From positions 113,964,309-114,028,308 of the forward strand of contig JAUMIR010000002.1 in assembly GCA_030847615.1 (NCBI GenBank): a stretch of 64,000 bases of DNA, read 5' to 3'. The number at the start of each line of letters is the position of its first letter. The first letter of the stretch is position 1. The DNA comes from Gambelia wislizenii (lineage: Eukaryota; Chordata; Lepidosauria; Squamata; Crotaphytidae). Position numbers and translations under genes: made by a program. Positions 16,654-57,635 of this stretch are shown here, piece by piece. The notes beneath the pieces were generated by a model, which was not told where the DNA came from, ran no database searches, and saw only the letters and a list, made by a program, of their open reading frames with translations.

Positions 16654-16984
16654 GGGAGATTTTCAGACACCATTTTCAGCAGTATATATTCCAAACAGCT
16701 CTGTTGCTGCCGCGCGGCAGGGGAGCAGTTTTGGACGACGACGTTCCTCTGCCGAACCCCTCCGTGTCACTTCCGTGACAGAATGGAGGAAGCCGCGTCA
16801 TATTTCACTCACGGGCAACAATTGTGAATGAAATATGATGCGGCTTCCTCCATTCTGTCACGGAAGTGACACGGAGGGGTTCGGCAGAGGAACGTCGTCG
16901 TCCAAAACTGCTCCCCTGCCGCGCGGCAGCAACGGAGCTGTTTTGGAATATATACTGCTGACAATCACATCTGAAAATCTCCCC
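16654..16984. mobile_element. long palindromic foldback element
   Basis: Two arms of about 160 bp are near-perfect inverted copies separated by an 11-nt loop at 16,813-16,823. Matching pairs include GGAGATTTTCAGA at both ends, GCCGCGCGGCAGGGGAGCAG, and CGTGTCACTTCCGTGACAGA near the middle. GC content is far above the flanks. One arm is homologous to a single segment inside the DNA element at 49,768-50,604. Open frames crossing it (16,442-16,831 and 16,835-17,065) are artefacts of the palindrome. Confidence 0.85.
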
Positions 16985-26622: not shown

Positions 26623-26848
26623 CAGGATCAGTTTAAGGAATTTTTGGGGGTCCTGCAATGCTTTATTTTGGGGGGCCCATATGTTTATCTCAGGTCAATG
26701 TAACCTAACTCAACCTAAGCTATTCACAGTACAGGATATTCAGATTATTAGTAATAATGTTTTTGCAGGAGGAGGATTATTACAGGTCTCCCACAATGAT
26801 GGGGCCCCCTGCAGATGCTGATGCCGCTGGTGCCTTAAACCGGCCCTG
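26623..26848. mobile_element. hAT-like MITE, CAGGGCCGGTTTAAGG termini
   Basis: The left end CAGGATCAGTTTAAGG and right end CCTTAAACCGGCCCTG are inverted repeats. The flanking octamers CAACCCTG and CAACCTTG match at 7 of 8, the 8-bp duplication of hAT elements. The interior shares GCAATGCTTTATTTTGGGGG with the copy at 39,156-39,368. Confidence 0.85.
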
Positions 26849-35332: not shown

Positions 35333-36589
35333 TCCTGGTGGACTTGGGGCAGCGGGGAAAAGAAGGGGCAGATTCTAATTCTGGTTTCAAAGTGAAGGAC
35401 CAAACTGAGACCGGAAAATCGCACCGCACCCCCCCCCTCGTCTACTGAACTCTGGAGGAGTTTGGGAGAGAATGGCTACATGCTCAAGATGGGAAACCTG
35501 TGCTGAGAGTGGTGTGTTTATTTGATTTGTAACCGGCCTGCCGTAGGGACGGACGCTTCCCCCAGACGGCTGCTCTTGAAAGGGGTAAGGAAACCCCCAC
35601 CGACCTAGAGGGGGAGCGGACTCTGCCGCGGCTGCCTCCTGGAGGCGCTGCAGCTGCCCTCCCCCGTCTCCTCCGCCGGGCCCAAAGGAAGACCCGAGGG
35701 GGCTCCCGACCCCCCCCAACCCCGCGCCCCTTCCGCCCGCCCTTGGCACCTGCGCTTCCACCACTCGCTCGCACCCAGCCCGCCAGCCGCTGTTGCAGGC
35801 ACTGGGCAGTCTCGCCCCCCTTCCAGAAAGCCGCCTGCCTCCGCGACAGAACGGAAAGCGAAAACCAACCCCCCGGAGCGGACCGAGTGCAAGGGACAGA
35901 AGTTCGTTTGCGCCCGAGACGCCTCTGGCGCTGCCGGCCTTCGTGCCCCCTGGCCCTGCCCCGGCTGCCTCCCCAGCGCCCCCCTCCCCCGGCCCGGCCC
36001 GGCCCCTTCCCATCCTGGAAGAAGCGCTTCTTCCTTGCCGGTCCCAACAAGGCGCCAACGCACCTCGCCGCCCCGCCTCGGCCCTCCGCCTTTGCGCCTC
36101 CGCTGGCCCGGGCGGGGTTTCTTTGGCCAAAGCCTCTTGCCCGGGACTCTGCTTTTAGGCGAGCGCTCCCTCCACCCCGTCGCCGCCCTCCTTCTCCTCC
36201 TGTCCTCCCTCTCAGCCTCGGCTGGGGACGGGGCCGACGACCCCCAGGCTCCCCCCCCAGAAAGCCCCTGCCCCCCTTCTTCCCCGGGGCTCCTGCAAGG
36301 AAGGAAGGAAGGAAGGAGGTCTCCCTTCGAGTCACTCCCGGGGAGAGGCGCGCCCCTTTCCCTTCTTGGCCTCAGGGCTCCCGCCAACGCTTCCCAAAGG
36401 GAACCCCGGTCGACTTTCGTCCCTCCCTGTCCGAGAACGGCCCAAGAGAAAGTCGCGGTTGGGCTGCCTCGGCCGGGCTTGGGGCTCCCTCCGTCCCACC
36501 CAGGACCCGCGAGGTCGGCCTCGGCCACCTTGGCGAGGCTCAGAGCCGGCGAGGGAGGGAGGGAGGGGGCGAGGGGGCGCCGGTCCTAC

Positions 36590-37010
36590 CTTGAGCGCCT
36601 CCTCCGCGGGCTCTCCCGCCTTTCTCCCGCGCCCTCGGCGGCTGAGGGGAAGAAGGGGAGCCGCGCTCCCAACCTGGCCGGCGCGGTGCGGCTGCTTCTC
36701 TTCTCTCCTCTCCTCTCTTCTGGCCGTCGTGGCTTCTTCTGCCGGGCGCCTCCTTCCTGCCCAGGCGAGCCGCGGGAGGGGTGGTGCCGAAAGAGAGAGA
36801 GAAAGAGGGGGCAGGAACAGCAGCGGCGGCCGCCTCGCCTTCCCCTCCCTCCCCCGCCTCATTTCGCAGCCCGCAGTGAGGGGCTCCGTCTGCCTGCCTG
36901 CCTGCCTTGGCCGTCCGTCGCCGTCCCCGCCTCTCCCCTCCTGCGCTCTGCGCCAGGCGCTCCTCTCCGCCTTTCTCCAGCTTAGGAGCCGCCGGTGCCG
37001 CTGTCGCGGA
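36590..37010 (-). other. candidate first exon, leftward transcript
   Basis: On the minus strand, CTCAAG|GTAGGA (exon end at 36,590) is a good splice donor some 500 bp from the CCAAT/GC-box cluster at 37,085-37,099. The right edge given here is only a guess at the transcription start. An ATG at 36,860-36,862 opens a frame through the donor, but its product is low-complexity, so the exon may be untranslated. A second possible donor is GCGCAG|GTAAAG with exon end at 37,135, preceded by ATGGAGCGCAG. Confidence 0.35.
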
Positions 37011-37164
37011 AGAGCCGTGGCCGCGAGGGGGTCAGGCTCGTCCGGGAGAACAAAGCGGTCGGGGCAGCAGCAGCACCACCGGCCCGCCCGCCCGCCAATG
37101 AGGAGCCGCGGGCGGCATCAAAGGAGAGCTTTACCTGCGCTCCATCCTTGCTGAGGGCTCTCGG

Positions 37165-37270
37165 AGGGAGGGAGGGAGGGAGGGGAGAGAGAAAGAAAGA
37201 GGGAAGGAAGGAAGAGGAGGAGGAGGAGGAGAAAGGGGGCTCCTCTAAAGGCTGAGAGAGAGAGAGAGAA
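37165..37270. repeat. purine-rich GGGA/GAA/GA repeats
   Basis: Consecutive (GGGA)n, (GAAA/GGAA)n, (GGA)n and (GA)n runs inside the island, polypurine on the plus strand. Confidence 0.9.
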
Positions 37271-37720
37271 GGGGGCGTAGGGGGCGCATTGCCAACACAG
37301 AACCCATGGGGCCCCCTTTGGAAAGGGGGGCCTTCAAGGAAACCTCGCCTCCTCGTCTTTAAGGGAGGGAGTCTTCGTGGCCGCCTTTCTCTCCCCAACC
37401 CCACCCTCCGGCTGGCTCAGGCGGAGGCAAGAGGGGGGGGGAGATTGATATGGTAATAAGAGCGGGGTGGCCATACTTTCTCATTACTGTGGTAACCGAG
37501 GGGGGTAAAAAGGAGTTCAGGACAAAGGCCGCGAGCGAAGGGAACAAAACCAGTGACTGGCCCGGAACGCCCGCCACGGCTCTCCCTGGCAGCGCCTCTC
37601 CTCCCCGCTTTCTCCTGCCTGTGTGTTTTAATTGAAGGCGCCCATTTGCCAGTCACAAAGGGACAAGCCCGCTGCGGGGGGGGGGGAGAAGGGATGAGGA
37701 GGGAGGGGTCTTCTTGGCTT

Positions 37721-38157
37721 AACGCTGCCTTCCCTCAGAGCTTCCCCCTTCATAAAACATGCAGTAAGTGTCAACACCCGCAAGCTCGTTAAAGTTGCCC
37801 CACATGGCGCTTTAAAGGGAGAAATGGTGTGTATGGAGTGGGAGGGGTATGGGCTTATTGGGGGGGGGAAAGCTTTCTCTCCCCCCTGCTCCCTCTCCGA
37901 CCCACTTGCCTCCACCCACTCAACCTACCCACCCACTTGCTAGCCCAGTGGCTCTTTCCTCATCGGCCCTGTCATTCAATCCCTGCAGGCTTTTAGGCGG
38001 CTACAATGCACAGGGGGGGAGTGGGTCAGGAATAACTAACTGCACGGGTTGGCCCAACTCAGGGAGAGGGCTTGGTTCCAAACAGGAAGGTGCAGATCCA
38101 TTCATCTTTGGGGCTCCCTTCTGTGGAAGACACACCTGTAATGACAGGATAGAGCAC
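37721..38157. other. island shore, no feature recognised
   Basis: Composition falls from GC-rich to average. No exon is supported. Confidence 0.35.
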
Positions 38158-39155: not shown

Positions 39156-39368
39156 CAGGACCAGTTTAAGGAATGTTGGGGCCCCTGCAATGCTTTATTT
39201 TGGGGGCCCCATATGTTTATCAGTGTAACCTAACTCAACCTATTCACAGTACATGATATTCAGATTATTACTAATAATGTTTTTGCAGGAGGAGGGTTAT
39301 TAGGGGGCCCCCACAATGATGGGGCCCCTTGTGGATGCTGACGCCACTGGTGCCTTAAACCGGCCCTG
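39156..39368. mobile_element. hAT-like MITE with perfect 8-bp duplication
   Basis: The termini are CAGGACCAGTTTAAGG and CCTTAAACCGGCCCTG. The octamer GGCCTGGC is repeated exactly at 39,148-39,155 and 39,369-39,376. At 213 bp it cannot encode a transposase. It is the short relative of the 3.5 kb element at 40,443. Confidence 0.92.
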
Positions 39369-39672: not shown

Positions 39673-40557
39673 ATACCTTGCACATGTACAGTTTTGAAAA
39701 TGCGTATCAATAATACATATATTTAAATAGCACAGTCATCATGATTAAAGGCAGAAAATGGATCTTGCTTCCTTTCTTCTACTCTGATGCTAAACACATT
39801 TCCTTGGGACTAAGTTCTATTTTGTGACAGAATAACATTATATTTTTCAACTACAATTAGCATCTTTAACCATCTGTACATCCCCCCACATACCCTCTGA
39901 CTCCATATTTTTAAAAAACAGAAAACGATACAGTGGCAAGCAGCATCAGCCCTACTAAGCCCTTGCATGCCTATGTTGGCACAAATACTGATGCTCAGGG
40001 CTTGTTACTTTCCCCCTATCAACTGCTGCACCACATTGCAAACACTAACTTTGTTGTGTTGTGCTAGCCATGTTGCACATGTGTACAACTGATAGAAGCC
40101 TGTTGCCAAATCAGAAAGGGGTGTTTCATCCTGCTGCACATTCTCTTTCCAAACTATACCTATACTTTAAGGCAAGCTAGGTTAAAAACATGAACAGATT
40201 CTCTCTTTTTCACTCTGCTTACCAATTAATGTTAGGGTTTAGACAAGATAGGGCAAATGGACTGAGTACAATGCTATTCTCTTTATATAAAGGACATCTT
40301 TATTTATAAAAAGTCTGAACACACAACTCCTATGGCGGTTAACTGCAGTATAGATATTTGCTCTGTTGGGTCTGAAACAGAGCAAATGAAACAATGAAGT
40401 GCCCTGTGTCACCTTACAAACCAAAACTTTCATGCTCGCAAACAGGGCTGGTTTAAGGAATTTTGGGGTCCCCTGCAATGCTTTACTTTCGGGCCCCCAT
40501 ATGTTTTTCTCAGATCAATGTAACCTAACCTATTCACCGTACAGGATGTTCAGATTA

Positions 40558-40794
40558 TAGTAGGACCCCTGTATCCATGGATTCATTATCCATGGGGCAC
40601 AAAACAGCACACCTACCATAGAATCTTCCTAGAAAATGTGTCTTCCCTAGCCCTTTTCTAGGCCCTCCAAGGCAACTCTATGGTATTTTAAACCAGAACT
40701 CCCATTATTTTCAATGGCGTTCACTATTATTCATGGTTTTCAGAATCCACGCCCCCCCCCGAACCAATCCCAGTGGATAAGAGGGGCCTACTAT
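40558..40794. mobile_element. Tigger-type MITE nested in the hAT element
   Basis: Ends TAGTAGGACCCCTGTATCC and GGATAAGAGGGGCCTACTA are inverted repeats. The interior has AGGCCCTCCAAGGCAACTCT, as in the elements at 8,452 and 46,632. It breaks the hAT sequence at CAGATTAT. Confidence 0.7.
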
Positions 40795-40834
40795 ATTACA
40801 TAATTTGCCACCAATAATTTAGTTTAAAAAATAT

Positions 40835-41008
40835 ATAGAATCATAGAATCATAGAATTGTACAGTTGGAAGAGACCACGAGGGCCATCCAGTCCAACCCC
40901 CTGCCACGCAGGAAATCACGATCAAAGCATCCCCGACAGATGGCAATCCAGTCTCTGTTTAAAGACCTCCAAGGAAGGAGACCCCACCACGCTCCGAGGG
41001 AGTGTGAA
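40835..41008 (-). mobile_element. CR1 LINE 3' end fragment
   Basis: Begins with tandem ATCATAGA units, then GTTGGAAGAGACC and CCAACCCCCTGCC. Cut at GGGAGTGTG. Confidence 0.88.
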
Positions 41009-41147
41009 GCAGCATCCTGGTTTATTCTTCTGCCTGATTCACAGGAAGGAGTACACAAACCCAAGACGTTGCTCAGGATCCTTTATGCTCATTAACAGAG
41101 GGCAAAAGAATTATTCAATGGTATCTATCAACCCTCTCCCCATAACA

Positions 41148-41182
41148 AAATAAATAAATAAACTAAATAAATAAATAAATAA
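41148..41182. repeat. (AAAT)n microsatellite
   Basis: About eight AAAT units with one AACT interruption. Confidence 0.9.
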
Positions 41183-41638
41183 TCAAGAACTCAAAGGCAT
41201 TGACAGGATCCAACTCAGCTTCATCACTACCATTTGCAACAGTGACACCTGAATATAAAAAAAGACACTGCATTCCAACATTAGATGTTTTGAAGCTAAG
41301 CCACCTTGAGCCCCAAATTGGACATAGAACTCCACTCTAGTCTCCAGCCTACCAATTTGCAACATTTTGGCTAGTCATGTCCCAGAGATCCTCTGAAATT
41401 TGGGGTGAGGTTGGTGGTGGTGAAATGAAGTGCCCTCACATAGCTACAACTAGCTGAAACATACACAGGAACGTTCAGGAAAGTGTGGTATTGGTGGCTG
41501 TTTGGCAGAATCACATAAGGAATACAAGAAATGGAAGATCAAGAGAAAGTACTTTTCAGTTTCAAAATTAGCTAGTTTCTTTGGAGTTTGGGACTGTCCC
41601 ACAGAAGAAAGCAAAGCTCTATAAAACCATATATGTGT

Positions 41639-41662
41639 ACACACACACACACACACACACAC
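41639..41662. repeat. (CA)n microsatellite
   Basis: About twelve CA units close to the WDR77-like exon. Confidence 0.9.
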
Positions 41663-41736
41663 GTATCTCCATGGGATCCAGGCCATTACCAGCAAACCAT
41701 AAAACATTTCACATTACAGGATTTTTGTACACTCAC

Positions 41737-41937
41737 CTGAATCTGAAGCTACCAAGATGCCTTTATCTGCAACCCATTTCAGATCTGCTATTCCAGCTTC
41801 TGTTTGAACTCCAGCAGAGCAAAAGCCTTCATTAGGAGCTTTAGATGAATCCTTGAACACCCAAATGGAACCTACCCAGCAACGTCCACTCAAACTGGAT
41901 GCTCCCAGGAGCAATGAACCATCTGTCCGGTAGTGGG
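41737..41937 (-). CDS. WDR77: WDR77/MEP50-like single coding exon, probably captured
   Basis: The minus strand encodes an uninterrupted stretch containing [31 protein letters not shown] and GILVASDSG. From memory this is the N-terminal part of the WD-repeat propeller of WDR77 (MEP50), the WD40 cofactor of the arginine methyltransferase PRMT5 in the methylosome, with no length change. The exon ends TCAG|GTGAGT, a strong donor at the expected place. It starts after ATAATAG, an AG acceptor with a poor pyrimidine tract. It is 201 nt long with phase 1 at both ends, so it could be spliced into another transcript without shifting frame. No first exon, promoter or later WDR77 exon is seen nearby, and the exon lies inside the element at 40,443-43,950. 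It is therefore more likely a transposon-captured copy than the working gene, though its intact frame implies either recent capture or selection. Confidence 0.8.
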
Positions 41938-42059
41938 CTATTATAGGCACTAACATAATATTTTTTGCTTATTAACAATTAATGTAATGGTGTAGATTTC
42001 CTCAAAGAAAATAAAGAGTAGACTACAAGCTAAACATGAGTTAGCAGTGTGATGCAACA

Positions 42060-42647
42060 GCAAAAAATGCCAATGCAATTCTAGGCTGCATTAATAGGAG
42101 TAGTGTCTAGATCAAGGGAAGTAATAGTATCACTCCATTCTGCTTTGGTCAGACCTCACCTGGAATAGCGTTTCCAATTCTGGGCACAACAATTCAAGAA
42201 AGATACTGAGAAGGATGGTGCGAGGTCTGGAAGCCATTACGCCCTATGAGGAACGGCTTAGGGAGCTGGGTATGCTTAGCCTGGAGAAGAGAAGGTTGAG
42301 AGGGGACATGATAGCCATGTTTAAGTATTTGAAGGAATGTCATACCGAGGATGGAGCAAGCTTGTTTTCTGCTGCTCCAGAGACAAGGACATGGAGCAAT
42401 CAACTCAGACTACAGGAAAAGAGAATCCACCTAAACATTAGGAAGAACTTCCTGACAGTAAGAGCTGTTTGGAAGTGGAATACACTGCCTTGGAGTGTGG
42501 TGGAGTCTCCTTCTTTGGGTTTTTTTAAACATAGGTTGGATGGCCATCTGTCAGGAATGCTTGGATTGTGTGTTCCTGCAGGGCAGAAGCCGATCGGATG
42601 GAATCGCTGTTGGGGTCCCTCCCAGCCCTATGATTCTATGATTCTAG
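42060..42647 (+). mobile_element. CR1 LINE 3' end with ORF2 C-terminus
   Basis: It carries the end of ORF2 (readable pieces RLRELGMLSLEKRRLRGDM and KNFLTVRAVWKWNTLP), then the 3' UTR and terminal TATGATTCTATGATTCT at 42,629-42,646. A frame of 147 codons is open across the coding end. It is 5' truncated, as usual for LINEs. Confidence 0.9.
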
Positions 42648-42759
42648 GCTGCATTTAGAGCCTGGGAAAGTTACTCTTGGATTACACCTCCCAGAATCCT
42701 CCTGCCAGCACCCTTCTCAAGGTCTGGTTGCATTGTTCCTTTTCCAGCATTGTGTAGCC

Positions 42760-43111
42760 CAGTGGTTCTTAACTTGGGGTCTGCAATGTCCTCACAGGGG
42801 GTCCACAAAGGCTTGAAGGCTGCTTGGCCCACCTCCTCCCTGTAGTGGAGTAGCCACATGACAGGAACCAAGGCAAAGGCTGGCTGGCTTGGCCTGCACA
42901 TTGCTATTCAATCCACTCCAGCCACAAACTTGCAGGAAGAAGCAAGAGTGTCTCTGAGGGAAAGTTTAATGGATGGTGTAATTGTATTGTTGTTCTTGTT
43001 AGCTATTATTATTAGCTATTATTATTAGGCTTTTAAATCTTGAGTTAAGTCTTGGGGCAACAAAAGATATTTAAAGGGGGTCCCTGGTAAAGAAAAGGTT
43101 AACAACCACTG
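42760..43111. mobile_element. hAT-type element, CAGTGGTTCTTAAC termini
   Basis: CAGTGGTTCTTAAC at the left and GTTAACAACCACTG at the right are inverted, like the Charlie/MER-type hAT elements of amniotes. Flanking octamers TGTAGCC(C) and TTCTAGGC agree only partly, so it is old. An AATAATAATT stretch is inside. Confidence 0.7.
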
Positions 43112-43243
43112 TTCTAGGCCAATGCCTCTCACATAACACTAAAGCGATACTGGTGTTTTAGTGACAACAATAAAACCATTGTTCCCAGTAATATTGCTCC
43201 AAATTTTTCTTTATATTCTTTATATTCTTCTGTTAAAAGAGCT

Positions 43244-43471
43244 AGAGTGTTGTAGAAGTTTCAGCATTGCCCTATGACTGTGGAGACCAGGGTTTGAATC
43301 CTTACTCAGCCATGAATACCCACTGGCTGACCTTGGGCAAGTCACACTCTCTCAGCCTCAAAGGAAGTCAAAGGCAGACCCCCCTTTGAACAAACCTTCC
43401 CTAGAAAACCCCATGGTAGGTTGGCCTTACTCAGAAATGACTTGAAGGCACCTAGGCAAACACACAAATTT
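43244..43471 (+). mobile_element. CORE-SINE (MIR-like), head degraded
   Basis: Contains GGAGACCAGGGTTTGAATCC, GACCTTGGGCAAGTCACACT and ACTTGAAGGCACCTAGGC. Confidence 0.82.
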
Positions 43472-43597
43472 CTTTTGCAGGCTGAACTCAGTTGGCAGCA
43501 AGGGGAGGAAGCTGAAGAAGACCAAGGGGGAAAGGGAGGGGAGGGGAACCAAGACATGTTAAAAGCAGCTGGAAAGATGGGCTGGAGGGGATCTATG

Positions 43598-43640
43598 TGC
43601 AAGGAAGGAAAGGAAAGGAAAGAAAGAAAGAAAGAAAGAA
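43598..43640. repeat. (GGAAA)n/(GAAA)n microsatellite
   Basis: Tandem GGAAA then GAAA units. A complementary (CTTT)n run follows at about 43,725-43,750, so the pair could fold. Confidence 0.9.
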
Positions 43641-43958
43641 GCCCTTTCTGAGGGAGACAACCTTCAAATTCCCTGTCTCTCACACACACACTCACCCTCT
43701 CCTTCTGCCATGGGGGGTTGCTGTTTCTTTCTCTTTCTCTTTCTCTTTAGTTTTGGAGAGGCTGTTTTGTTTGTTTTGTTTAGAAAAAAAGCCAGCAAGA
43801 GGTTTTTGGAGGAGGAGGGTAAGAGGGGGCTCCTCCCGGCTGTCTCCTGGCTGTCTCCTTCGTCAGATTAAGGAGGCCAACACGGGGTCCTCTCTTGACC
43901 TCGGGGCCCCCTGCCAATGCTGATTTGGCAGACAGGTTAAACCGGCCCTGCTCGCAAA

Positions 43959-44366
43959 TTAATCATAGGGTTGGAAGAGACCACAAGGGCCATTCAGTCA
44001 AACCCCATACTTTGCAGGAATAAAAAAATCAAAAAATTCCCAACAGATAGCCATCTTGCCTCTGTTTAAAAACCTCCAAAGAAAGAGACTCCACCACACT
44101 ATGAGACAGTGTATTCCACTTCTGCACAGCTCTTACTGTCAGGATGTTCTTCCTAATGTTTAGATGGAATCTCTTTTCCTATAGTTTGAGTCCATTGCTC
44201 CATGTCCTAGTCTCTGGAGCAGCAGAAAACAAGCTTGCTCCATCCTCAGTATGACATCCCTTCAAATATTTAAACATGGCTCTCATGTCCCCTCTTAACC
44301 TTCTCTTCCCCAGACTAAAGATACCCAGCTCCCTAAGCCACTCCTCAAAAACTTTCCATGCGGAAA
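43959..44366 (-). mobile_element. CR1 LINE 3' end
   Basis: Minus-strand CR1 from the terminal ATCATAGGGTTGG, next to the hAT duplication, through the ORF2 C-terminal region to CTTAGGGAGCTGGGTATC. The terminal repeat is short here. Confidence 0.88.
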
Positions 44367-48001: not shown

Positions 48002-49445
48002 TCATAGAATCATAGAATCATAGAATTGCAGAGTTGGAAGAGACTACGAGGGTCATCTAGTCCAACCCCCTGCCATGCAGGAATACACAATCAAAGCATC
48101 CTTGACAGATAGCCATCCAGCCTCTGTTTAAAGACCTCCAAGGAAGGAGACCCTCCCACGCTCCGAGGGAGTGTGTTCCACTACCGAACAGCTCTTACTG
48201 TCAGAATGTTCCTCCTAATGTTGAGGTGGAATCTCTGTTCCTGGAGCTTGCACCCATTGTTCCGTGTTCTAGTCTCTGGAGCAGCAGAAAACACGCTTGC
48301 TCCATCCTCAATGTGACACCCCTTCAAATACTTAAACAGGGCTATCATATCGCCCCTTAACCATCTTTTTTCCAGGCTACACATACCCAGCCCCCTAAGT
48401 CTTCCATCATAAGGCATGGTTTCCAGACCTTTCACCATTTTAGTCACCCTTCTCTGGACACGCTCCAATTTGTCAATATCCTTTTTGAATTGTGGTGCCC
48501 AGAACTGGACACAGTATTCTAGGTGAGGCCTGACCAAGGCAGAATAGAGCAGCACTATTACTTCCCTTGATCTAGACACTATACAGTTGTCCCTTCACAT
48601 TCGCTGGGGTTTGGTTCCAGGACCCCCCGTGAATACCCAAATCCGTGAATATTCAAGTCCCATTATATGCAATGGAAGAGCAAAATGGTGTCCCTTATAT
48701 AAGATGGCAAAATCAAGGTTTGCTATTAGGACTGTTATTTTTTTAAGAATATTTTCAAGCCGTGAATACTCAAATCCGTGAATGTCAAATCCGTGAATGT
48801 GAAGGGACAACTGTACTTCTATTGATGCAGCCAAAATCGCATTGGCCTTTTTAGCTGCCGCATCACACTGTTGACTCATGTTCAACTTGTGGTCTACTAG
48901 GACTCCTAGATCCCTTTCGCACGTAGTCTCGTTCAGCCAGATCTTCCCCCATCCTATATCTATGCATTTCGTTTTTCTGCCCTAAGTGCAGTACCTTACA
49001 TTTCTCCGTATTGAATTTCATTTTATTAGCTTTGTCCCAGCTCTCCAGTCTATCCAGGTCATTTTGGATTTTGATCCTGTCCTCTAGGGTATTAGCTACT
49101 CCTCCTAATTTGGTGTCATCTGCAAATTTGATAAGGACGCCCCTAATTCTGTCATCCAATCATTGATAAAGATGTTGAATAGCACTGGGCCCAGGACAGA
49201 ACCCTGTGGCACCCCACTGGTCACATCTTTCCAAGACGAAGAGGAGCCACTGCTGAGCACCCTTTGGGTTCGGCCGGTCAACCAATTACAAATTCATTTA
49301 ACAGTTAACTTGTCTAGCCCACATTTTACAAGCTTGTTTTCAAGAATGTCATGGGGAACCTTGTCAAAGGCCTTACTGAAATCGAGGTATGCGATATCCA
49401 CAGTGTTCCCTTCATCTACCAAGCTGGTAATTTTATTTTTTTTAA
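48002..49445 (-). mobile_element. CR1 LINE, long 5'-truncated copy, split by a MITE
   Basis: This is the best CR1 in the window. Reading the minus strand from 49,445, the reverse transcriptase blocks KITSLVDEGNTVDIAYLDFS and KAFDKVPHDILENKLV appear first. [20 protein letters not shown] at about 49,080-49,140 holds the catalytic aspartates. The thumb follows, then [19 protein letters not shown] near 48,530, then the 3' UTR and tandem ATTCTATG repeats at 48,002-48,026. Frames are broken by stops and indels, and by the MITE at 48,584-48,813. The endonuclease and ORF1 are missing. Confidence 0.92.
48584..48813 (+). mobile_element. pogo/Tigger-like MITE nested in CR1
   Basis: It begins CAGTTGTCCCTTCACATTCG and ends GAATGTGAAGGGACAACTG, almost perfect inverted ends, with TA at 48,582-48,583 and 48,814-48,815. 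Removing it with one TA rejoins the CR1 sequence ACTATACTTCTATTGATG. This is the most intact of the three family members. Confidence 0.92.
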
Positions 49446-52445: not shown

Positions 52446-52483
52446 GTAAGCCAGAACTCACCAATTCTTCTTAATTCCTACCT

Positions 52484-53038
52484 GTGATGTCTGACGACAT
52501 GGAGATTGGAACCCAGACGGAGAAAGATCTAGCCACAGACGATGGCCAGGGAGCTGGCTTGCTGGAGGATGGTGCAGGTGTGCCAGAGGAAGAGCTGAGC
52601 CGAGCCCGATGGAGGGCTGGAAGGCTGACCCTTCCCCCCCCCATCCTCATGGAGCTGGGAGACAGGCAAGGCCTGGGGATGGGCAGCCTACCTTTCTCAG
52701 GGACTCCAGTGCATGGGGCAGGAATGGCCATGGGAGCTAGCTGGCTCTGGCTGGAGGAGCAGGATCGGGATGAGCGGAGATCCCTACGGTGGGATCAGCC
52801 CCTAGCCGAGGGGTTTCGTGAACCTGGGGGAAGACCCCACTGTGCAGAACTGGAGAAGGAGGTACAGCAGCTGGAGCAACAGGTGGAGACCATGCAGAAA
52901 AGCCTCCTGGAGATCTTACAGAGACTGCCTCAGCAACCTGCAGTCCTGGGGGAGGCAACCACCCCAGGGACCCCAGCTGCCAGCTCCTCAAGGGGGTGGG
53001 GTCCCGGGTCCCCCAGGTGGGGTCCCCACAGCTCCTGA
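52484..53038 (+). pseudogene. gypsy gag, N-terminal segment
   Basis: An open frame of 184 residues begins about 40 bp after the 5' LTR. It is acidic at the start (MMSDDMEIGTQTEKD), with a probable coiled-coil stretch rich in Glu, Gln and Leu at about residues 122-146 (ELEKEVQQLEQQVETMQK). Such a segment precedes the capsid domain in Sushi-like Gag proteins, where it helps assembly. The frame stops at 53,038, and the capsid coding resumes in another frame at about 53,100, which implies a frameshifting indel. Confidence 0.75.
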
Positions 53039-53099
53039 TGGAGGCCCCATCCCGTAGGCTCCTGGTCCAGTACCCCCTGCAGGGGCTGGCCCGGTTGAG

Positions 53100-54133
53100 C
53101 TGCAGGAGAGACCACGTGGTCTCAAACACCGGGACTTGAAGGCCACTTTTGATGGAGACGCCACGAAGTTGCCATACTTCTTAACCCAGGTGATGGGATT
53201 CATGTCTCATTGGGAGGAAGAATTCCAGACGGAGGCCGAGAAGGTGCAGTACGTCTCTAACCAGCTAGATGGGGAGGCAGCAAACTGGCTGGTGGGGCTC
53301 TACGACATGGGGCTCCATAATTAGGGAGCTCCTACGACTTCATGATGGCCCTTAGAGCTCAATTCAAAGACCCCCTGAGGATGAGGCGTGCATGCACAGA
53401 ACTTCAGAAACTGCACCAGGGTTTGAGACCCGTGGCTGAATATGCCTCCGAATTTCGCCGCCTGGCCAGCCAGATCCCCAACCGGACCGAGGCCACTAAA
53501 GTGCAGTATTTTCAGGATGGTCTTAACACTGACATCCTAGAGTGGGCCTTGGTCCAAGGGAACCCAGAAATCCTCCTGGGGTCAGTACAGCTGGCTGGGG
53601 AGGTGGAAACCCTGAGACAGAGCGTCAAGCTGGCCCGGCAATGCCAGGGGCTCGGCGGGAAGCCCAGTGGGTGCACAGGGAAGAAAGCTAAGGTGGCTCA
53701 ACCAGCAGGAGGCACATCGGGGGAGTTGGAGAGGGAGCGACGGATGTGGAAAGGCCTGTGCCTGCACTGCGGAAAAGGTGGATACCGCATAGCTGAGTGC
53801 CCAGAGAAGCAACCCTGGGACAAGCCCGTAGAAGAGAGACCCAAGAAGGTGGATGGGAGACCAACAGCACCCAAGACGCCGTTCAAGCCAAAGCCCAAAG
53901 TATGTGCCTTGATCCCTGGTCATGTGGCAGGTGAATCTTCTGAGGAGCCGAATGACAGTGGATCCGCTTCCGATGCTGAGCCGGCGGGAAATGGATGCAG
54001 CCTGCCCTACTGCACCCGAGGGCAGGCTTATCCTGAAGGGTGCCTAAGTGCTGTGGTGAGTGGGGTGAAAACCCCATTTTTTCTAAAAGCCAAAATAGGG
54101 GTTGCAGATAATGCCCCCCCCCCTGAAAAGTGA
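53100..54133 (+). pseudogene. gypsy gag, capsid and zinc knuckle
   Basis: The capsid-type region starts near FDGDATKLPYFLTQVMGFM (53,140) and continues through VQYVSNQLDGEAANWLVGL. An in-frame stop interrupts it at 53,322-53,324, and it resumes in the 263-residue frame from 53,342 (EYASEFRRLASQIPN). One zinc knuckle, CLHCGKGGYRIAEC (about residues 140-153 of that frame), has Tyr where CCHC knuckles have His, which should weaken zinc binding. The C-terminal part is basic then acidic. The frame overlaps the pol start by 4 nt (ATGA), so pol was probably expressed by a shift or restart. Confidence 0.85.
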
Positions 54134-55485
54134 TGATAATGGTGGATTCCGGGTGTACCGAGGTGCTAATTCACTCCTCCCTGGTCAGTGAACTTTCAGT
54201 TAATACCATCAAGCTAGACAAGCTGGTGTGGCTGTCTCAGATGGACGGGGGGATGATGAAGGGGGCCCCTGCGAGGCACATGACTGGCATGGTACAAATG
54301 AAGATGGGAAATCATCAGGAGGAGCTCCAATTTGTGATAGCGCCAGGCTTGGTCCCAGCCGCAGTAGTAGGCTTGAACTGGTTAAAGTTCCACAACCCCA
54401 CTATAGACTGGATCAAGGAAACTGTGACTTTTATAGACCCCATGTGCATGCGGAAACACGGGGTGTGTGACTCCAGTGGGGCCTTGCTGGGGAGGGGAAT
54501 CCCACAAGGGACCAAGCAGCAGAACTCTAAGGTCGTTAAGGTGCAAGGGGAAGTGAGAGAATTACCAGTGGAGTATAAACAGTGGCAGTATGTGTTTGAA
54601 GAGAAAGAATGTGACATTCTACCCCCCCACAGGCCGTTTGACTGTGCAATTGAAATAGTCTCAGAAGTGGCACTGCCCAAGTCCAAGATTTACTCCATGA
54701 CCCCGGTGGAGATGGACGCCTTCCGCGAGTTCATAGATAAAAACTTGACCTGGGGGTTCATTAGACCTACAACCTCCCCCTTGGGGCCCCCGGTGTTGTT
54801 CAGATGCAAACACGATTCTTCTCTCCGCCCCTGCATAGATTACAGATCCCTAAATGCCATCAGTGCATCAAATCATTACCCACTCCCCTTAATGAAAGAT
54901 ATCCTGGCTCATTTAGCCAAGGGGAAGATATTCACCAAGCTGGACTTGTGGGAGGCCTATTACATGGTGAGAATTAAGGAGTGGGATGAGTGGAAAACTG
55001 CTTTTAATTGCCAGCTAGGGACATTTGAATTCCTCGTGATGCCGTTTAGATTAAGTTGGGCCCCCGGGGTGTTCCAGAACTTATTTAATGATGTGCTTAG
55101 AGAATTTTTGTACAAAGGGGTACTGGTATATCTGGATGATGTGCTCATCTACTCAGAGGACTATACGTCCCATGCTAAGCTGGTTAAGAAAGTACTCAGT
55201 AAACTGGGGGGAAACCATTTGTATGCCAAAATGTCGAAATGTGAATTCCACCAAAGCTGCTTAGATTATTTGGGGTACCGCATCTCTAGCAGGGGAGTTG
55301 AAATGGACCCTGAGAATGTCAAGGGGGTCCTTGCATGGGAGGCTCCCAGGTCCAGGAAGCAGCTTCAAAGCTTCCTAGGATTTGCTAACTTTTACTGGTC
55401 CTTCATCCCTGACTTTGCTGAGGTTGCCTTGCCCCTGACTGACCTGTTGAAAACCAAGGGTATGTGTGTGTGTGTGTGTGTGTGA
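54130..55485 (+). pseudogene. gypsy pol, protease and reverse transcriptase
   Basis: This 451-residue frame opens with the aspartic protease active site VDSGCTEV (Asp at residue 6). The reverse transcriptase follows, with LRPCIDYRSLNAISASNHYP, KIFTKLDLWEAYYMVRI and the catalytic YLDD box at residues 334-337 (55,129-55,140). In the LDL motif Trp replaces the usual Arg. The connection region starts at RKQLQSFLGFANFYW. The frame ends where a (TG)n microsatellite (about 55,461-55,484) has replaced or expanded within the coding sequence, creating MCVCVCV then a stop. As a protein it would lack RNase H and integrase. Confidence 0.9.
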
Positions 55486-55531
55486 GAAATGAACTGGGAA
55501 GGGTAAGGAAGAGAAGCCTCCCTAAAAGATT

Positions 55532-56141
55532 GTGTGGTCTGACCAATGTCAAAGAGCATTTGACAAGCTGAAAAAGCTTTTCACCTCTGACCCTATCCTT
55601 AACCCCGAGCCCGAGCAGCCTTTTGTGGTTCAAATGGATGCCTCTGATGTGGCAATGGGGGGGGGTTTGCTGCAGTGGGACGAGGGGGGAGCTCAGACCC
55701 TGTGCATACCTATCAAGGAAGTTCAATGATACTGAATGAAATTGGCCAGTGTGGGAGAAAGATGCAGGGGCAATAAAAGTAGCCCTGGGGACTTGGTGCC
55801 ATCTGCTGGAAGGATCTTCCCAACCTTTTGAGGTTTGGACAGATCACAAAAACTTGGAGGCTTTGAAAACCCCATGCCGCTTGAACCCCAAACAATTTAG
55901 GTGGGCCAGTTTCTTTTACCGGTTCAACTTCCCACTGACGTTTCTCCCTGGGAAAAAGAATTTCTTGGCTGATGCTTTGTCCAGGCTCTCTCAACATGAC
56001 AGTAAGCGGAAGAAAGTAATAGACACGGTTTCCCCCCTCCCATTTGGGGTTGGCAGTTCTCACACGCAGTCAAGCCAAATGCCAGGAGGCCCTTGGTGGT
56101 CCTGCTTTGGGCCAGGAGCGAAACTTAACGGGAGGGCCTGA
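55532..56141 (+). pseudogene. gypsy pol, RNase H region, frameshifted
   Basis: The first part, at 55,532-55,729, includes QRAFDKLKKLFTSDPIL and the RNase H start VVQMDASDVAMG. It ends in stops near 55,728-55,735. The second part lies in another frame at 55,749-56,141, with DAGAIKVALGTW, VWTDHKNLEAL and the Ty3/gypsy hallmark NFLADALSRLSQHD. A further shift near 56,050 follows the RNase H domain. Confidence 0.88.
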
Positions 56142-56178
56142 CGGGCCACCCTCAATGGGTGCGACCCCAACTGCGCCA

Positions 56179-57039
56179 CCAGCCCCAACAGGCCTAGAGC
56201 CTTCCCCCCTCATGACAGAAGACAGCGGGGGTGGGTGGCAGGCTCAGATGGCAGCTGCTCTTTCCCACAACCCCTGGTACCTTTCTCACAAAGGGGAAGT
56301 AGTACTACGAGGGGGTTTGGCTTGGAAGGGGGAACGCATGTACGTCCCCGAGGCTATGAGGACTGCCATCCTTAAACAGTGCCATGATGTGAAAAGTGCA
56401 GGTCACTTTGGGTATGTGAAAACATTGCATTTAACATGACGGCAATTCTGGTGGCCCAAAATGCGAAAGGAACTGGAGAATTATGTAAAAGGGTGTCATA
56501 TGTGTGCGGTGGCAAAAAGAGCCAGTGGAAAACCAAAAGGCCTGTTACTACCATTAACTACCCCCACTCAACCTTGGGAGGTCATTAGTACAGACGTCAT
56601 TGTTGAGTTGCCAGAGAGTAAGAAAAAGATGGTTATTTGGGTAGTGACTGACCTGTTTTCCAAGCAAGCTCACTTTGTTACCTGCAAGAAACTCCCGACC
56701 ACCCCTCAACTGGCCAAGCTTTTTGTGCAACACATATACAGGCTACATGGAGTTCCTGCCAAAATCATCTCAGATAGGAGTGTTCAATTCACCTCCCAGT
56801 TCTGGAAGGCGTTTACAAGGCTGTTGGGAATTGAGCTAGCGATGAGTAGCTCTCATCATCCACAAAGTGATGGCCAGACTGAACGTTTGAACCAATTTTT
56901 GGCACAGTATTTAAGGTGTTACGTCAACTTCCAGCAGTCTGATTTGGTTGATCACCCTTCACAGAGGTGGCATGCAACAACGCCATACACCAAAGTACTG
57001 GCTTGTCCCCCTTTAAAATTGTTTCAGGACAGGACTTAG
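56179..57039 (+). pseudogene. gypsy pol, integrase
   Basis: The zinc-binding part has HDVKSAGHFG and, after an in-frame stop at 56,437-56,439, KGCHMCAVAKR. In the 192-residue frame from 56,461 the catalytic triad is complete: Asp45 (VISTDVIV), Asp105 (IISDRSVQFTS) and Glu141 (SDGQTERLNQ), with 35 residues between the second Asp and Glu. This segment otherwise reads well. Frame is lost again near 57,000. Confidence 0.9.
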
Positions 57040-57635
57040 ACCCTCTGCCTTTGGGAGAGGGGGATCCCAGAGACCCAGTTCCTGGGACTCAATGGAACAC
57101 TCAAATCAAAGACGCCTGGCCCAGAGTTGTGTCGGCCCTAGAGTACGCGAAGGCCCGCTACAAAGAGCATGCGGACAAGAAACATGACCCTGCCCCAAGC
57201 TACACTGTGGGAGACTTGGTATATCTTTTCACTAAGTCCCTGAAGAGCCCGCAGCCCTCAAAAAAGTTGGGGCCTAAATACATTGGACCTTTCCCTATTG
57301 TTAGGGAAATCAGCCCTGTGGCTTTTGAACTATCCTTGCCCAAATTGTATCGTAACATCCATCCTGTGTTTCATTCTAGTTTGCTCAAGCCTGCGTGCCC
57401 TCCAGATCAACATCATCGAGTTCCTGAAACGCCCTGCCCTATCATGGTGGACAATGATCAACATTTTGAAATCTCTGATATGCTGGACTCTCGGGTTCAC
57501 AGGGGGGGGTTGCAGTACCTGGTAAAATGGAAGCATTTGCCTATGGGTCATGCTGAATGGGTCAATGTTGAACACGTCAAGGCTCCACGCTTATTGAGGA
57601 AGTTCCATGCCTGCTTCCCTGATAAGCCTGGCTGA
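56967..57635 (+). pseudogene. gypsy integrase C-terminus with chromodomain
   Basis: A 222-residue frame overlaps the previous one in another register. It has the GPY/F-type module (LGPKYIGPFPIVREISPVAF and HPVFHSSLLKPA). At about residues 168-215 it ends in a chromodomain: FEISDMLDSRVHRGGLQYLV, then VKWKHLPMGHAEWVN. Chromodomains of this group recognise modified histone tails and can steer integration to particular chromatin. The aromatic positions are largely kept. Confidence 0.9.

Follow-up and report, generated by a model that had tools for sequence, protein, structure and literature searches.

Elements of the hAT superfamily generate 8-bp target duplications and have ends that start with CAG. 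In maize, the Ds elements include filler-containing elements and macrotransposons. In animals, Pack-TIRs carry foreign host sequence between the ends of one terminal inverted repeat (TIR) element (Tan et al. 2021, PMC8277862). That paper lists 370 Pack-TIRs in 100 animal genomes. Of these, 208 belong to hAT, the commonest superfamily, and 38 are from the American alligator. A comparable arrangement is present in a 64,000-nucleotide stretch of the squamate Gambelia wislizenii (assembly GCA_030847615.1, contig JAUMIR010000002.1, positions 113,964,309 to 114,028,308; hereafter the window), where an exon of WDR77, also called MEP50, lies between the ends of a hAT-like element at 40443-43950. Given the published counts, the remark in the initial annotation of this locus that such captures are rarely described in vertebrates is out of date. 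The favoured explanation, held with moderate confidence, is that a resident miniature inverted-repeat transposable element (MITE) was broken and then gap-filled with part of the WDR77 region.

For most published Pack-TIRs, the explanation given is that a resident element broke internally and was mended with another locus as template (PMC8277862). The breakpoints are internal and the median gap is 4.6% of the length of the transposable element (TE). In primates, the orthologous locus holds an unfilled TE in 91 of 97 cases. Exonic captures make up 13.4% and include a human ERP44 coding exon together with parts of the neighbouring introns. In that work, a Pack-TIR consists of 100-5000 bp of internal sequence between two TIR pieces of one element, each with at least 10 bp of the terminus. 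A single best-matching parental copy of the cargo must lie elsewhere (minIdentity 90, 80-120% of the length) and must not be flanked by a TE, and the cargo must not be a retrocopy.

Element ends and the enclosed exon

The outer ends of the element are at 40443 (left) and 43950 (right), and an exact 8-bp repeat abuts each of them. The repeat, CTCGCAAA, lies at 40435-40442 and 43951-43958 on the plus strand, outside both ends as the initial annotation had reported. It occurs exactly twice in the window when both strands are searched, each time next to one element end. By chance, a mean of 0.76 copies is expected and at least two are present in 21 of 100 shuffles. Two occurrences alone are thus not unusual, and it is their placement at both ends that carries the weight. 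The terminal inverted repeats, CAGGGCTGGTTTAA at 40443-40456 on the plus strand and CAGGGCCGGTTTAA at 43937-43950 on the minus strand, are identical at 13 of 14 positions. The 8-bp duplication and short inverted ends starting with CAG are those of a non-autonomous hAT element (MITE).

A joint scan for inverted 14-mers (at most one mismatch) with an exact 8-bp flanking repeat, at a spacing of 60-10,000 bp, finds three matches in the window and none in 60 first-order Markov simulations. One is the WDR77-bearing element. Another is a separate 201-bp hAT-like MITE at 16718-16918, which has perfect 14-bp ends (CAGGGGAGCAGTTT) and a perfect 8-bp duplication (CCGCGCGG). The third lies between inverted CR1 copies and has a palindromic flank (CAAGCTTG); it was rejected as a transposon.

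The enclosed exon is 201 nt long, open and in phase 1-1, and runs from 41937 to 41737 on the minus strand. It is the intact WDR77 exon of the initial annotation. Against PDB, it matches methylosome protein 50 in 13 distinct sequences, among them 4gqb, 8g1u and 8cyi (best E 4.4e-32). WDR77 is the partner of PRMT5. The encoded residues are the equivalents of human WDR77 36-100; the start of the full protein and its remaining WD repeats are not in this copy. A homologue search finds 348 proteins, 120 of which are listed, and other squamates are compared as proteins. Among the matches listed, identity over the exon peptide is 64/66 in both Podarcis and Sceloporus, 63/66 in Hypsiglena and Salvator, 62/66 in Phrynocephalus, 61/66 in Gekko and 60/66 in Tiliqua. 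Sceloporus and Hypsiglena also have its T in YRTDG. The S in KDSSK is the sole residue private to the exon with respect to these seven squamate proteins among the matches listed.

On the 5' side, homology ends at A|HYR. The 3' boundary, S|G, coincides with the point at which isoform X3 of Mandrillus departs from the full-length protein, which indicates that the unit is one exon. The donor and the following non-coding sequence are retained, and the copy is therefore not a spliced retrocopy. The exon is solitary in the window. Six WDR77 queries in tblastn, the human protein and five squamate proteins, find no other WDR77 exon above background in the 64 kb (next best E 0.24 and 0.79). This clears 22 kb upstream and 41 kb downstream of the exon and agrees with the earlier statement that no other WDR77 exon is nearby. 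Rfam returns no matches at gathering scores, and a literature search finds no paper with both "WDR77" and "squamate".

The two arms, the age of the exon and the cargo

Two short relatives of the element are present in the window, m1 at 26623-26848 and m2 at 39156-39368. They are 86% identical to each other and are flanked by 8-bp duplications identical at 7/8 and 8/8 positions. The left arm of the WDR77-bearing element (40443-40555, including the terminal repeat) matches m2 positions 1-110 and m1 up to 123, with 86-87% identity over 105 ungapped columns. The right arm (43802-43950, ending in TTAAACCGGCCCTG) consists of a 33-bp piece at 85% (m2 124-156) and a terminal 48 bp at 77% (m1 179-226), with 69 weakly matched or unmatched bases between them. 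It is about 59 bp longer than the right half of m2. The initial annotation had both ends matching these MITEs, which holds with the qualification that the right arm resembles them much less than the left arm.

In m1 coordinates, the match of the left arm ends at 123 and that of the right arm begins at 137, which leaves about 13 bp (6% of 226) unaccounted for. From these alignments, the simplest reading is that the arms are one MITE of about 226 bp opened near its middle, with a clear left arm and a weak right arm. If so, the duplication dates the MITE and not necessarily the cargo. The arms are 113 and 149 bp long around about 3.2 kb, as judged against the two window MITEs and not against a published consensus.

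The exon looks younger than the left arm. Over 105 columns, 11 substitutions are private to that arm, which corresponds to a private branch of 0.118 substitutions/site (95% 0.051-0.199). Because subfamily divergence contributes to this branch, it sets an upper limit on how long ago the insertion occurred. Under simulated neutral decay, the probability that the exon shows at most two residue changes and no stop is 0.78 at d=0.01, 0.18 at 0.03, 0.025 at 0.05 and 0.0005 at 0.08. At 0.10 and 0.12, this outcome occurs in none of 4000 runs. One private residue in the exon, set against about 0.12 substitutions/site in the left arm, indicates that the exon arrived later than the MITE or is constrained. 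The comparison with other squamates is at the protein level, and protein data alone cannot separate late entry from constraint. A combined divergence of 0.39 substitutions/site for both arms was discarded, as the right arm was misaligned, and the left-arm figure alone is used.

The internal breakpoint, the small gap and an exon younger than the adjoining arm fit gap filling. In the proposed sequence of events, a hAT-like MITE of about 226 bp would have inserted first, generating the CTCGCAAA duplication as hAT elements are known to do. It would later have broken near its middle, and in the repair about 3 kb of the WDR77 region, presumably intron 1, exon 2 and intron 2, would have been copied into the gap. 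The copied block would have brought its resident CR1, SINE-like (short interspersed nuclear element) and MITE copies with it, and the two MITE arms would remain around the foreign block. This is the transposition-independent gap-filling route described for Pack-TIRs (PMC8277862). Under it, the element probably did not travel as a 3.5-kb unit. The earlier claim of a capture that moved as one insertion therefore stands in part: hAT-like termini and a target duplication do surround a WDR77 exon, but the arms resemble the halves of one MITE, into which the cargo could have entered later by gap repair.

Several points weigh against gap filling. The native WDR77 locus is not seen within the window, and the copied block and breakpoints are deduced. 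There is likewise no cargo source in the window, though published Pack-TIRs favour nearby sources (56.9% under 15 kb; PMC8277862). At about 3 kb, the cargo is well above the median of 224 bp in published cases; the largest human case is 3,585 bp. The right arm aligns poorly and could belong to a longer subfamily instead of to a split MITE. The left-arm branch overstates age, since it includes subfamily divergence that preceded insertion, and selection on the exon would explain the contrast between exon and arm equally well.

Between the arms, the cargo looks like ordinary intronic DNA in its repeat composition. At 40556-40795 (plus strand) is a probable small inverted-repeat MITE ending in TA, with 22-bp arms that are complementary at 18 of 22 positions. 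This probable MITE lies either at the left edge of the cargo or nested within the hAT MITE. A possible resumption of the left arm beyond it is not significant, as equally good matches arise in 840 of 5000 shuffles for m1 and 655 of 5000 for m2. A 5'-truncated CR1 3' end follows at 40835-41006 on the minus strand and is 91% identical to window positions 48004-48175. The block with the WDR77 exon and its presumed intron flanks (41007-42016, minus strand) is non-repetitive as judged within the window, where it has only short CA-microsatellite matches elsewhere. A CR1 3' region at 42017-42646 (plus strand) matches window positions 48898-48814 with 48581-48070, 44347-43961 and 61706-61318. A second hAT-type insertion at 42760-43111 (plus strand) has the ends CAGTGGTTCTTAAC and TTAACAACCACTG, which were read by eye with positions checked. 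At 43238-43451 (plus strand) is a SINE-like repeat with several window copies that are 71-84% alike. The cargo also contains a GA-rich tract.

Pfam searches of all six frames of 39-52 kb return only reverse transcriptase pieces near 49 kb and no transposase domain. The same scan misses the WDR77 exon itself; it is weak for short exons, and its null result says little about short stretches. The reverse transcriptase match is a CR1-type fragment at about 49144-49395 on the minus strand (RVT_1, E 6.3e-11), with a weaker piece in the next frame. Another CR1 copy, at 43961-44347 on the minus strand, begins 2 bp beyond the right target duplication; the insertion site of the MITE may thus have coincided almost exactly with the 3' end of a CR1. 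Six-frame searches of about 1-30 kb and of 34-39 kb return nothing. Beyond 52 kb, coverage is three plus frames for 52.5-57.6 kb and two of six frames for 58-64 kb. A Ty3/gypsy-type retrotransposon at 52475-57632 has gag, reverse transcriptase, RNase H, integrase and chromodomain matches. These are spread over the three plus frames, and its reading frame therefore appears broken. Together with the CR1 copies and the protein matches of the exon, this element is a sign of squamate DNA.

Other origins and possible use of the exon

The best surviving alternative is the one proposed initially, in which the WDR77 segment was picked up elsewhere by a hAT element that then moved to this site as a 3.5-kb unit and so produced the target duplication. 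The exact duplication at both outer ends and the 13/14 inverted ends agree with it, and multicopy hAT examples are described in the western clawed frog (PMC8277862). It is unlikely nonetheless. The form of the arms suggests a MITE with a single internal split, the exon is far less diverged than the left arm and no second copy of the element is present in the window. Published Pack-TIRs are mostly single copy, with only four multicopy cases (1.4%; PMC8277862).

Insertion mediated by CR1 is very unlikely. Here, a transcript spanning WDR77 exon 2 and part of intron 2 up to the 3' end of a CR1 would have been reverse-transcribed from that end (5' transduction) and would have landed in the MITE. 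On the strand of the exon, the block does end in a sense CR1 3' end (41006-40835) near one edge of the cargo. This end is separated from the hAT arm by 39 bp and the probable 240-bp MITE, the same block holds a second CR1 in the opposite orientation, and no duplication is seen by eye at the inner boundaries. The idea was also formed post hoc.

The splice signals of the exon are unequal. Splice scores use vertebrate position frequencies, are ranked against the AGs and GTs of the window and are relative values. The donor, CAG|GTGAGT after 41737, scores above 99.98% of the 6599 GTs, in line with the strong donor noted at first. The acceptor went unmentioned at that stage and is weak. Lying before 41937, it reads CCTATAATAG|CC (in a longer reading, ATGTTAGTGCCTATAATAG|CC) and ranks at the 62nd percentile among 8955 AGs; a further AG lies 12 nt upstream. 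Of acceptors simulated from the position frequencies, only 0.7% have a score this low. With a non-consensus acceptor that ranks like an average AG, the suggestion that the exon could be donated to other transcripts is weakened, and such donation is doubtful.

It is hardly probable that this is the native, working exon 2 of WDR77 with very long introns, the hAT-like boundaries being coincidental or a product of partial gene relocation. The near-perfect protein conservation (64/66 to two lizards) and the donor are as expected of a working exon. Against this stand the poor acceptor, the 22 kb upstream and 41 kb downstream in which no other exon is found, and the ends with their duplication, which none of the 60 simulations reproduces. 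In addition, a 2.5-kb CpG island at 35.5-38 kb would fall in intron 2. An assembly join that placed a WDR77 fragment here is extremely unlikely, as the window contains no N and the foreign block is bounded by MITE arms and a matching duplication, unlike a random misjoin.

The exon copy is probably a solitary, non-functional duplicate. There is little probability that it is kept by selection. In that case it would either be spliced through its strong donor, and perhaps a cryptic acceptor, into another minus-strand transcript, giving a new protein the N-terminal WD-repeat segment of WDR77, or have been relocated by a transposon and serve the species as its own exon of WDR77. When splice and codon scores were used to look for host exons, none of the 10 candidates listed was convincing by eye; the acceptor threshold would exclude the WDR77 exon itself, and the search is thus insensitive. 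The CpG island (35501-38000) has a GC content of 0.59-0.73 and a CpG observed/expected ratio of 0.44-0.79, with no Pfam domain in six frames of 34-39 kb. It is possibly the promoter and first exon of some gene. It lies on the downstream side of the exon's strand and is not an obvious promoter for the exon.

Comparison with described systems

Maize Ac/Ds elements (PMC3260210) resemble the locus in their hAT ends, 8-bp duplication and foreign sequence between the ends. They differ in that no transposase is found here by Pfam and nothing points to a pair of complete elements acting together. The Pack-TYPE elements and Pack-MULEs of plants (PMC8903248) are also non-autonomous TIR elements that enclose gene pieces. 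Plant elements are often multicopy (36% of rice Pack-MULEs, as cited in PMC8277862), whereas this vertebrate element has one copy in the window.

In the animal Pack-TIRs of PMC8277862, as in the locus, the two ends of a single TIR element enclose foreign host sequence, the internal gap is small and exons can be cargo. The differences here are a cargo of about 3 kb, a diverged right arm and a parent known at the protein level only. Within this published class, the WDR77 element is a large and clean candidate Pack-hAT from a squamate. Its transposon ends enclose, at a new site, an entire and very well preserved coding exon with its presumed flanking introns. Should use of the exon be shown, this would document exon shuffling by a DNA transposon in a vertebrate. 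If it is unused, it would stand as one more case beside the catalogue of 370 and as a test of the gap-filling model, as the exon appears younger than the arm that adjoins it.

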